From contig NW_004457435.1 in the NCBI RefSeq assembly GCF_000313135.1, forward strand, positions 14,213 to 78,212: 64,000 nucleotides of DNA, in the 5' to 3' direction. Shown here in pieces: positions 29,500 through 33,290 of the stretch. Each line of letters starts with the position of its first letter. Position 1 is the first letter of the stretch. The translations under genes and the position numbers were made by a program. A model generated the notes under the pieces. It was not told where the DNA came from. It saw nothing but the letters and a program-made list of their open reading frames with translations, and searched no databases. The stretch is from Acanthamoeba castellanii str. Neff (Eukaryota; Discosea; Longamoebia; Acanthamoebidae).

Positions 29500-31666
29500 T
29501 TACGCGTGCGGTGTGTCTGGCGGTGGGTGGTGGGGCGATGGTGGGTTGGTGGGCGTGGCGGAGGTGAACCAGGCGGGCAGGAAGGCGAGGCTTCCGTCCT
29601 TGAAGCGTGTGGCCTGAACGTGGCTGAAGGGCGCACCGTAGTCGAGCGCCCACACCACCTTGGCGTCGTCATCGCCGCCACTCGCAGTCTTCTCCTGGTC
29701 CTCCTGCTCGAATAGCCTGTCGGACATCAGACGCGGCAAGCGAGAGGGTGAGACCAACGCCACACGCCACACGCCACACGCCACACGCCACACGCCACAC
29801 ACGCCACACACGCCACACACGCCACACACGCCACACATCACACGAAGATTACCACGCGACCCAGGTGAGGAACTGGTCGCAGAAGTTCATGCACACGGCC
29901 GAGTCCTGCAGTGCGCAACGCACGCCGGCGTGTAATTAAAAAGTGAATAGACAATAAATATAAATATAAAAAAAATAAGGGAGTGGCCCGTACCCACATG
30001 TTGCGCTTCCCCTCCACAAAGCGGGGCAGCTCGAGCGTCTTGAAGTGCTGCACGGTTCGCACTGGACGACGCACGCACGCGGCATGGTGAGCGCGGTGAA
30101 GGAGGAGCTCAACCGGAGGAGTGGAAAGTGGTGGGGGAGGGTACCGATGCCCTCGTCATCGCGGAAGCCGACCACCACCCGCGGGACGCCGGCGAGAAAG
30201 GACTGCGACCAGAACTTGAGCAGTTTGTAGCGCTCAAATGACGTTCGGTCCCTCTCCGTCATTAGCACCTTGTTCGTCTTCAGCTCCTGCGCACGCGCGA
30301 GTTTGACGGTGAGCGTTGTGCAGGCACCGCGCTCGAGCGTAGGTTAAGGTGGCGTATGACGTACGACGTAGTTGTCTGGTGGTTTGGCTTGACCCTCTGG
30401 CAGCAATGCGAACCGAACGTGGAGGGTGTGCTGACGTCAGCAGCAGTACTGCAGAGAGAGTGGTCCGAGAGGGAAAAGAGAAGAGAATTGAGGTACCCAT
30501 GCAGCAGTCGGTTTCGCCCGACATGAGCAGGAGGTGCGAGCCCAGCCGCGCCCTCACCACCGTGCAGTAGCACGGAATGTTGCTCACCGGCCCTTCATTT
30601 GGTTCTTGCAGCCCTGATAGCGGTCGTGCGTGTGCGGTCACGCGCGTGCGGTCGTGTGTGCGGTCGTGTGTGCGGTTGTGCGTGTGCGGTGGTGCGTGCG
30701 TGCTGCGCAATTGGTACCGGTGCGAGGCCGCGTGGAGTAGTCTTCGAATTTGTAGCCCCAGTAGCCCATCAGCTCCTCTCGCTGCGTTTGATTGCGTCGG
30801 CGCGCTTGAGTCTCCGGTGTGTCCTTGTCCGCGATGTAGATGGTGCCCTTGAATCGACATACGAGTAATCGCCAGCTTTCGCTGCGATTGTAGGGAGCAC
30901 CTATAATGACAGAAAGGTCATTCCAACACCACACACATACACACACACACCACAGTGTAACGAACGCGTACATAGGAGGCGCGCAAAGGAGCCGCGCCAG
31001 GCCACGAACTGTGGGTGCGCGATGACGTCCATTTCCCTGCGTTTGTATGATCTGTGCGTCAGCGAAGTGAATGCGACGACCACCAAACGCAGCGCAGTGC
31101 ACAGCCAGAAGGGGGCGTGAAACGCACGAGGCGCGAGAGCCGCCGGCGCGCTGGTGGTGCAGCCACGACAGAATGGGCGTGATGTGCTCCTGCTTCTCTT
31201 TCTCTTCGTCTTTCTTCACGAAGGTGTCAAACCCGGCGGACAGATCGCAGCCAGGTGCGGGCTCCTTGAAGTAGCGCTGTGCATTCAACCACGGCACACA
31301 CCGCACACACCGCACACAAGCCAGGCATATGAGTACTCTCATGTAGCACACAACGCAAGTGCGGAGAGAGGAAGACGCACGAGCTCTTGGTCGCTGTCGT
31401 TGTGCCATTGATGGTCCGCGTCCCGTGACATGCACCCCACCTCCCTTGAAATACATTTTACGTAAATATAACAATAAATAAAGAATAAAAAAGAAAATGT
31501 ACCGCGGTTGGGAGTAGTGCGGAAACTTCCAGCGGTGGTAGGCTTGTGCGGATACGGCAAATATGGGCGACTCTTGGTTCGGGGTGGCAGCAGGCTCAGC
31601 ATAGGCCTCTCGTGGTCCCTCTTCTTGTCTTGCCCGCTTGTTTCTTGGCGCAGCTTCCGCCTCCAT
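29500..31666 (-). CDS. DXO/Rai1-family decapping exonuclease
   Basis: Start at [14 protein letters not shown] (31666; the KRAR cluster is a possible nuclear signal), stop at 29500-29502. Family: Rai1/DXO, which removes faulty or NAD caps from mRNA and degrades from the 5' end. Seen in order: [55 protein letters not shown], then the active-site motifs GETDCC (near 30510) and ELKTNK (near 30280), [16 protein letters not shown] and [18 protein letters not shown]. These are the metal-binding ExD and ExK elements of the fold. One splice (the GETDCCM to ELK join) does not resolve cleanly with a GT donor. The C-terminus is Pro-rich. It shares a promoter region with the histone doublet. Confidence 0.85.
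29755..29838 (+). repeat. ACGCCACAC / ACGCCACACAC tandem repeat
   Basis: Short CGCCACAC units, changing to CGCCACACA units midway, in an intron of the DXO/Rai1 gene. Confidence 0.85.
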
Positions 31667-31845
31667 CTTCTTAGTGGAAGAAAATAAAGGAAAATACCAT
31701 TGTATTCCCGGAGAAACACAAAGAAAAGAACCAGGAAACAACGTTGAACCATTGGCTAACAATTCCCGAGAAATTAATAGAAATGAAGTTAAGCCACACT
31801 TTATAATATATTCTCCGAAATCTGTATTGTTTGCAAGCAAAGGAG
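31667..31845. promoter_or_regulatory. Bidirectional promoter region, DXO/Rai1 and histone doublet
   Basis: 179 bp between diverging start codons, strongly A/T rich at 31735-31830 (TTTATAATATATTC near 31800). AGGAG immediately precedes the doublet ATG. Confidence 0.45.
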
Positions 31846-33290
31846 ATGAGTGACTACAGCGTCTGCGCGTACCGAGTGCTCAAGAAGGTGGACCCGGGAA
31901 TGGGCATCTCGTCGAAGGGGATGGCCATCATCAACTCCCTCGTCCACGACGTGCTCACCCGTCTCGCCGCCGTACCCTCCGCTAACTATCGCCAACGTTG
32001 ACATCAACCAACCAACCACACTTGAACTCACTTCGTGCCGTGTGGGTGGGGTCTTGAAAAATGGGATTATAGGAAGCGGGCAAGCTGGCGCGCTACAACG
32101 CCCGGAAGACCGTGACGGCGCGCCACATTCAGACCGCCGTGCGACTGCTCCTGCCGCTCGGGTTGGATAAGGTACGGCCGGCCCGCCAAAGTCACTTCCC
32201 CGGGCACTGACACGCCAGGCGTCCACAGGGTGCGGTGGCGGCTGGAACGGAGGCGGTCGAAGCGCACAGGAGCAAGAAGGTGGGTAAGGTGGCAGCTGCT
32301 GCCGCTGATGCTGACGAAGACGAAGAAGAAGAAGAAGGAAGCGGAAGAGGAGGTAGGCGGAGCTGAGGCCGGGGTTGAAGGCGACGAGGAACCGGCGGCG
32401 GCGGCGCAGGCAAGCCTGGCTTTCCCCCTCGCGCGCATGAAACGCGCCATCAAGGAGGAGAACACGAACATGCTTGTAGGGGCAGGTGCGACGACCTCTT
32501 TTTCGTGTTCTTACATCAACGACCATGATGTGGTTGCTAACATGTTGGTCGTGAATGTATCACAACAGAGGCCACAGTGTACCTCGCTGCCGCGATGGGT
32601 GCGTGTCTTCCGTTTCACCTTTCTTGTGCGGGGTGGCTCGCTAACCATCGCTTTCTTTCTTCGTCTTCGTTCTTTAGAGTACTGCGTCGGACTCGTACTG
32701 CGTACTTGAGCCCCACCTAGCAATTGGGCCACAGCCTGGCTCATCAACAAACCTCATCTTCCTCTTCTTCTTCTCTTTCCGTCAGGTCCGGCCTGTGAGT
32801 GCGCGCGTGCGCAGTCCATGCTGCGCATCGCGCCACACCACGTGCAGCTGGCCATCCGTAACGACAAGCCTCTTGGCCGCTTCCTTGCCGACGCCATCCG
32901 TATGTTTCCCACAACAACCCTTTCCTTGGCGTCTGTGTGTGGGTGTGGGTGTGTCATGCTGACGTGGCACGAGTCGCACCGACAGTTATGGGCGCTGCCG
33001 GTGCATTGCCCGTCTTGCCATCGCTGCCCAGCCGCCATGTCCCGCTCGCGGCGGCAGTGCCCACCGAAGTCCAGGCGCCCGTGGAGGCGGTGCCGGGCCT
33101 GCGCAGGGCGCTGGCAGCTGCTGGTATGGAGCGGTGCGATGAGGGCGGCGCGTTCTTTGCCAATCCGCCGCAGGCTGCGCTGCCTGCGCTGGCGGCCGCT
33201 GTGGCTGCGTTCGAGATCAGCCAAGACGTCGCCGAGCTCCAAGACACCCTCGCCCACACCCTCCGCTACTTCTCGACTTCGCACTTTTGA
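31846..33290 (+). CDS. Histone H2B-H2A fusion (histone doublet)
   Basis: Eight exons close into one frame of 274 residues: 31846-31971, 32073-32171, 32229-32279, 32410-32485, 32569-32598, 32678-32701, 32786-32899 and 32986-33290. Residues 1-92 are an H2B fold with almost no N-terminal tail (MSDYSVCAYRVLKKV, GISSKGMAIINSLV, TARHIQTAVRLLLP). Residues 93 to about 175 are an H2A fold (ASLAFPLARMKRAIKEEN, VYLAAAMEY, APHHVQLAIRND). The chosen intron 32280-32409 leaves essentially no linker. A Pro/Ala-rich, then helical, tail of about 100 residues with no known match follows. Of the eight canonical acidic-patch residues only H2A Glu56 and Asp90 remain. Known: H2B-H2A doublets package DNA in Marseilleviridae. 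Inference: an old exchange with such viruses, or a divergent host variant. It is intron-rich, so it is a nuclear gene and not a fresh insertion. Confidence 0.85.

Follow-up and report, generated by a model that had tools for sequence, protein, structure and literature searches.

The chromosome of Acanthamoeba castellanii str. Neff itself appears to carry a histone layout described to date chiefly in giant viruses, in which an H2B fold is followed by an H2A fold within one gene. The gene lies in the window, that is, the whole stretch of 64,000 nucleotides that was analysed (Table 1). In its predicted product, Pfam PF00125 (1e-24) and PF00808 (3.2e-12) each match in two stretches, and 7wlp_A, a PDB entry for a designed H2B-H2A chain, aligns to residues 3-182 at 7e-44. 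Thus, both folds are present and in the order that the first-pass annotation of this DNA had given. Its proposal of an H2B-H2A doublet in the host nucleus is likewise supported at the sequence level, and it is strengthened by a second doublet on another contig (C234) of the same genome and by annotated proteins of Balamuthia mandrillaris.

The eight-exon model of the first-pass annotation was reproduced: its exons sum to 275 codons including the stop, and all of its introns are GT-AG. The last acceptor, which it had placed at 32986, is more likely at 32974. With that acceptor, the model has 279 codons, stop included, and reads ADAILAPTVMGAAGALP, compared with ADAVAPPTLPTGLAGAAGALP in P0001, a Logan protein of 312 residues in which the H2A fold is joined to the C-terminal domain without the last intron.

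Table 1. Positions of the features discussed. Coordinates are those of the window unless a contig is named.
Feature	Position	Strand	Remarks
Window	C130:14213-78212		Host genome 38.4 Mb, 250 contigs
Intergenic	31667..31845	.	Between divergent starts of RAI1-like gene (minus, ATG near 31666) and doublet (ATG 31846)
Doublet locus	31846-33290	+	
Exon 1	31846..31971	+	H2B alpha1 to mid alpha2; begins MSDYSV, without N-terminal tail
Intron 1	31972..32072	+	GT-AG, 101 nt
Exon 2	32073..32171	+	Remainder of H2B fold, EAGKLARYNARKTVTARHIQTAVRLLLPLGLDK
Intron 2	32172..32228	+	GT-AG, 57 nt
H2B alphaC helix	32229..32279	+	Probably the opening part of a single longer exon ending at 32485
Intron 3 of the first-pass model, most likely coding acidic linker	32280..32409	+	130 nt, out of frame as assembled
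H2A fold start	32410..32485	+	ASLAFPLARMKRAIKEENTNMLVGA
Intron 4 (first-pass model)	32486..32568	+	
H2A exon EATVYLAAAM	32569..32598	+	P0001 similar here
Intron 5	32599..32677	+	3' end rich in pyrimidines
Micro-exon EYCVGLVL	32678..32701	+	24 nt
Intron 6	32702..32785	+	3' end rich in pyrimidines
H2A alpha2-alpha3 exon	32786..32899	+	PACECARAQSMLRIAPHHVQLAIRNDKPLGRFLADAI
Intron 7	32900..32973	+	Acceptor probably 32973/32974
Last exon	32974..33290	+	H2A docking-like segment and C-terminal helical domain; TGA stop 33288-33290
Conserved core of C-terminal helical domain	~33080-33280	+	Within last exon
Second doublet, H2B-H2A(.Z-like)	C234:61737-60468	-	L042, seven exons
FG-rich exon and Ran GTPase	C234:60467-about 59100	-	L043

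The stretch between the two folds was read as an intron (junction 32279/32410) in the first-pass annotation, but it is probably not one. In P0036, a protein of 155 residues from a JGI metagenome, VAAGTEAVEAHRSKK, an acidic linker of 41 codons (17 D/E and one K/R) and then ASLAFPLARMKR all lie in one open frame. P0001 likewise has an acidic run at the linker position, and a Pro codon (CCN) stands immediately before its ASLAFPL, so that an AG acceptor cannot exist there. Openness alone is no proof of coding, since gene callers prefer open frames and P0001 is also open through introns 4-6. It is the absent acceptor in P0001 and the frame of P0036 together that tip the balance towards a coding linker, and 32280-32409 most likely encodes an acidic linker, as judged from these related sequences. 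P0036 covers the H2B part by its final 15 residues only, and exons 1-2 have no orthologue among the relatives found. The exact sum of the exons carries no weight at this place, because 28 different GT-AG removals of at least 20 nt restore the frame, and after single-base shuffling of the stretch 1652 of 2000 versions contained, by chance, a frame-restoring GT-AG pair of at least 50 nt.

In the window assembly, the two folds are mutually out of frame. TGA 32364-32366 lies in the H2B frame and ATG 32308 in the H2A frame; without splicing in the linker, the chain as assembled would end at the TGA. The earlier statement that neither a stop nor a start lies between the folds thus holds if 32280-32409 is removed, and fails for the unspliced sequence. 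A stop and a start are what is expected between neighbouring histone genes; the window has this pair, and P0036 has none. The frame shift may reflect an error of assembly, an allele of this strain or a genuine intron. PMC9145170 warns in section 16 that the eukaryotic fusions examined by its authors seem to be mis-spliced neighbours. A coding linker would place the fusion within a single exon and would answer this warning.

The H2B part aligns without gaps to a host single gene over 87 codons, with differences of 0.37/0.25/0.48 at codon positions 1/2/3, and the H2A part does so over 79 codons (0.43/0.33/0.57). In both parts position 2 differs least and position 3 most, which is the pattern expected under protein constraint. 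The identity to host histones is 59% of 87 residues for the H2B part and 43% of 89 for the H2A part. With assumed residue numbers for the acidic patch and K120, the alignment has E56 and D90 kept in the window H2A and E61, E64, E91 and E92 lost, while E105, E113 and K120 of H2B are all lost. Six of the eight acidic-patch residues are gone (two of six kept in H2A, none of two in H2B). In the host histones, the second doublet and Balamuthia P0040, all nine residues (acidic patch and K120) are kept. An acidic patch and H2B K120, as looked for in nucleosomal H2A and H2B, are not found in the window copy. The composite chain with a P0036-like linker has a pI of 5.5 and a mass of about 33 kDa. The eight-exon model gives 29.0 kDa, and the histone of roughly 29 kDa that had been predicted is not confirmed.

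A segment of about 90-100 residues follows the H2A fold. Its final ~65 residues are 88% identical to P0001 and 57% identical to the product of a host gene near position 113,000 of contig C146 (minus strand, L018). Among the candidates scored in the host genome, C146 and the window are the only loci with this domain at E<1e-3, and the two differ by 0.22/0.27/0.46 at the three codon positions over 59 codons. A search of the protein database gave P0001 as the only relative among 7997 candidates, and no credible family was found in Pfam or NCBIfam. The structure predicted for the window's last exon has four helices (mean pLDDT 71.2, a model from two sequences), and it matched no fold in PDB or BFVD at E<=0.001. 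The C146 gene opens with MARTKQTARKSTGGKAPRK, the same as the host's own H3. Its protein, the exons of which were joined by eye, consists of an exact H3 tail (ARTKQTARKSTGGKAPRK), a PARP-type zinc finger (zf-PARP, 2.2e-15), an acidic stretch, a glutamine run and the shared C-terminal domain, in this order. Elsewhere in the host genome, divergent and apparently intron-bearing H3-like genes were seen on C9 near 1,204,700 (L007) and on C79 near 267,400 (L038); they are perhaps centromeric or other H3 variants.

Six of the 20 window ORFs scanned have a Pfam match at E<=0.001, to RAI1 (1.1e-25), rhomboid (two frames), STATa, PGM1 and a SUMO-like family. As far as these flanking genes show, the locus is part of the host chromosome rather than a viral insertion. 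The gene does not look like one encoded in a viral genome, as introns are present and RAI1, rhomboid, STATa and PGM1 genes flank it. The starts of the RAI1-like gene and of the doublet lie head to head 180 bases apart, which leaves scant room for an upstream exon encoding an H2B tail. The same head-to-head arrangement suggests a shared promoter. tRNA and Rfam scans of the whole window found nothing. Elsewhere in the genome, one actophorin exon agrees with PDB 1ahq, the Acanthamoeba castellanii protein, at 76 of 76 residues.

Is the fusion a single case in this genome? A genome search with P0017, a metagenomic doublet, revealed H2B and H2A exons in order on the minus strand of C234. The spliced product of 210 residues matches PF00125 in two stretches (2.5e-25) and PF16211 (1.1e-8). 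One exon (61178-61103) reads in a single frame from the H2B end through the linker into SRSQRAG of H2A; neither a stop nor an ATG separates the folds. Among the rows compared, the H2A half is nearest to the host H2A.Z (69/101), as against 64/100 for P0040 and 62/102 for the host H2A.X, and the acidic patch is intact. Downstream of the doublet, a 123-nt GT-AG stretch that has no ATG leads, in frame, to an FG-rich exon, which continues into a GTPase; when its pieces are put together by eye, the GTPase matches Ran at 2.2e-41. Thus read, H2B-H2A.Z-FG-Ran seems to be one gene; alternatively, the doublet may stop 11 codons past HKSLVSK, inside the 123-nt stretch. More Ran-like frames were noted by eye on C234, to ~56,300, one of them with a Pfam Ras match (6.7e-13). 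No intron position coincides between the two host doublets, which may thus have arisen by separate fusions, or be old fusions whose introns have turned over. Among the best candidates scored, the host has two single H2B genes, one H2A.X-like gene, one H2A.Z-like gene and the two doublets. The second doublet in the same genome makes the fusions look like a real amoeba invention and not a one-off.

Like the window gene, P0040 (218 residues) and P0043 (248 residues) of Balamuthia mandrillaris are amoebozoan and have H2B and H2A in one predicted chain, although they are labelled as single histones. Unlike the window product, P0040 keeps the acidic patch and has a short glycine-rich linker. Both Balamuthia proteins are without the C-terminal domain, and they group with the C234 doublet at weak support (70/99) and not with the window doublet; other groupings are not rejected. 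FPVGL...WLKA is common to C234 and P0040. In tree tests, neither a grouping of the window with C234 (0.451) nor one of the window, C234 and Balamuthia (0.199) is rejected.

The metagenomic proteins P0016, P0017, P0021 and P0022 are also continuous H2B-H2A proteins, although the metagenomic doublets may be chimaeric assemblies. Over the matched spans, their identities are 64/81, 80/96, 66/82 and 62/85 to the host H2B, and 68/102, 75/101, 77/103 and 81/101 to the host H2A (for P0022, to H2A.Z). These values (67-83%) exceed the 22-48% identity to eukaryotic histones stated for viral doublets in PMC9145170. P0042 (H2B 59/87, H2A 53/100) and P0083 (H2B 47/95, H2A 53/102), to which the same caution applies, are lower. 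P0022, an H2B-H2A.Z doublet in one protein, is encoded on a Logan contig of 21.7 kb. Animal 'fusions' were dropped as support in view of the mis-annotation warning in PMC9145170, and the merc rows P0015 and P0018 were dropped as possible assembly chimaeras.

The first-pass annotation had suggested either an old exchange with Marseilleviridae, in either direction, or a host variant fused independently. The viral link is unsupported, since the two halves score with eukaryotic or host histones, the scans of viral contigs are empty and the flanks are ordinary, in a comparison whose rows hold no known Marseilleviridae. The best scorer of the H2A half is the host H2A.X (43% of 89) among 16 rows without known Marseilleviridae. 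For the H2B half (31 rows), the best scorers are P0044, P0045 and P0050, followed by the host H2B in fourth place (59% of 87); the best H2B row overall has 62% (84). Scans of viral contigs with the window chain, the doublet alignment, P0042 and P0022 gave no confirmed relative, and the right viruses are perhaps absent from those contigs. In the protein searches (36 and 77 rows), no virus was found among the source-named rows; many rows are nameless, and a word-based search may overlook diverged viral doublets. Trees were made of 31 H2B rows, 16 H2A rows and a joined set of 14 rows, which include no Marseilleviridae sequence, and the window chain is placed with support in none of the three; its end branches are 0.92 (H2B) and 2.92 (H2A). 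Ten one-clade groupings were checked, nine of them by AU tests; among the nine, the window H2A with P0042 was the only one below 0.05 (0.038), and the other eight gave 0.15-0.39. A grouping of the window H2A with P0083 is already a branch of the best tree, with nil support (34/0).

What might such a protein do? I lean somewhat towards reading the single-chain H2A-H2B pseudodimer as an adaptor or variant dimer with a specialised role in chromatin, targeted by its C-terminal domain. The nuclear gene would produce one chain with a tail-less H2B fold, an acidic linker of ~41-43 residues, a diverged H2A fold and the C-terminal helical domain. Within this chain, the two folds would bind one another and form an H2A-H2B-like pseudodimer, which may occupy the normal dimer site or contact chaperones or H3-H4. 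The acidic linker would weaken the DNA contact at the H2A N-terminus, and the C-terminal domain may bring the chain to a partner or site in common with the H3-tail/PARP-finger protein of C146. Factors that read the acidic patch, H2B K120 or the tails would be blind to the pseudodimer, which lacks all three. These losses, the acidic linker and the shared C-terminal domain are proposed to point to a specialised adaptor or variant dimer, not to bulk packaging. Ordinary packaging is covered in the host by single canonical-type H2B (two), H2A.X-like and H2A.Z-like genes. It is also possible, though I hold this tentatively and at less than an even chance, that the fused pseudodimers of the window and C234 both serve chimeric regulatory proteins as modules for docking to chromatin. 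The window product would contribute the acidic linker, a patch-less H2A and the domain shared with the H3-tail/zf-PARP protein, and the C234 product an H2B-H2A.Z-like doublet with FG-rich and Ran parts. RCC1, the exchange factor of Ran, is known to read the H2A-H2B acidic patch, and this patch is kept in C234.

Several other explanations have to be weighed against the specialised adaptor or variant dimer. As the chief functional alternative, the doublet may substitute the H2A-H2B dimer in looser nucleosomes, like H2A.B or the melbournevirus variant doublet. The histone-fold sequence is retained, and PMC12297534 describes destabilised nucleosome-like particles of a viral H2B-H2A variant in which only ~90 bp of DNA are seen; however, the acidic linker in an acidic composite chain, the extra C-terminal domain and the absence of the H2B tail and K120 make this rather doubtful. 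The chief structural alternative, a decaying or strain-broken copy with the linker out of frame, the H2A half evolving nearly freely and no full protein in the strain, would explain the in-frame stop of the linker, the very long H2A end branch (2.92) and the change of four of the six H2A acidic-patch residues. It is unlikely, because the gapless H2B (87 codons) and H2A (79 codons) alignments keep the constraint pattern by codon position, the C-terminal domain is 88% identical in P0001, the P0036 frame is open and the shifted frame may stem from misassembly of a repeat.

The locus may otherwise encode two proteins, an H2B with an acidic tail ending at 32364 and an H2A starting from ATG 32308. 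Both of these codons exist in the window, and the called frame of P0001 begins with Met at the head of the linker. In P0036, however, Val stands there within one open frame from the end of H2B alphaC to the start of H2A, the promoter space between the two parts is scant, and the joining exon of C234 has no stop or ATG between the folds; two separate products are thus improbable. I consider it very improbable that the doublet was acquired from a giant virus (or donated to one) and gained its introns later. Acanthamoeba is a host of Marseilleviridae with H2B-H2A doublets according to PMC9145170, the H2B tail is absent and the folds are divergent. Furthermore, human H2B-H2A fusions and the window doublet share 47-49% identity, which is compatible with the 22-48% between viral doublets and eukaryotic histones in PMC9145170; as this is the top end of that range, identity alone cannot separate the window doublet from viral ones. 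Against a viral origin, the halves are best matched by eukaryotic and host histones among the rows compared, ordinary host genes flank an intron-bearing gene, the C-terminal domain is seen only in P0001 and the host-type C146 protein, and the viral-contig scans are empty, though the right viruses may be missing from them.

Compared with known systems, the doublets of Marseilleviridae (Hbeta-Halpha; the main and variant forms of melbournevirus) share with the predicted window product the order of H2B then H2A in one chain. By its description, the window gene is set apart from them as a host nuclear gene with introns, an acidic linker and a C-terminal domain in common with a PARP-finger protein. 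In melbournevirus, as PMC12297534 describes, the variant doublet is short-tailed and the main form has a C-terminal extension. The HSIH-DHF proteins (Miyake 2026, cited in the 2026 review PMC13088155) are likewise eukaryotic, with H2B-like then H2A-like folds and clear histone sequence. In PMC13088155 they are single-domain proteins with at least 60% identity to histones, and its Table 1 has animals only. The window product lies at 59% (87) for H2B and 43% (89) for H2A to the host, with 62% (84) in the best H2B row, and has the extra C-terminal helical domain. The Sos1 H domain, ABTB2 and Cca3S resemble it as histone pseudodimers used as a module or a small protein. The identity to histones is ~22-23% for Sos1 and 25-30% for Cca3S in PMC13088155, while the window sequence is unmistakably H2B/H2A. 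H2A.B and other short H2A variants have also lost the acidic patch; they are not fused to H2B, in contrast to the window product.

In the viral-histone literature, PMC9145170 (2022) regarded fused histones in eukaryotes as unconfirmed, though not rigorously excluded. PMC11222145 (2024) stated that fused histones are not observed in eukaryotes and built an 'evolutionary ratchet' on that. In the open-licence literature searched, no description of an amoebozoan or other protist H2B-H2A doublet was found, and a term search of PMC12344493 gave no mention of H2A, H2B or a histone doublet. If the present reading is true, the intron-bearing doublets of the amoeba, one of them fused inside one exon, would mean that fusion of H2B to H2A is both possible and realised in eukaryotes. 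The amoeba would then be a tractable host for asking how such a fusion affects chromatin, and Acanthamoeba hosts the very viruses whose doublets are debated.
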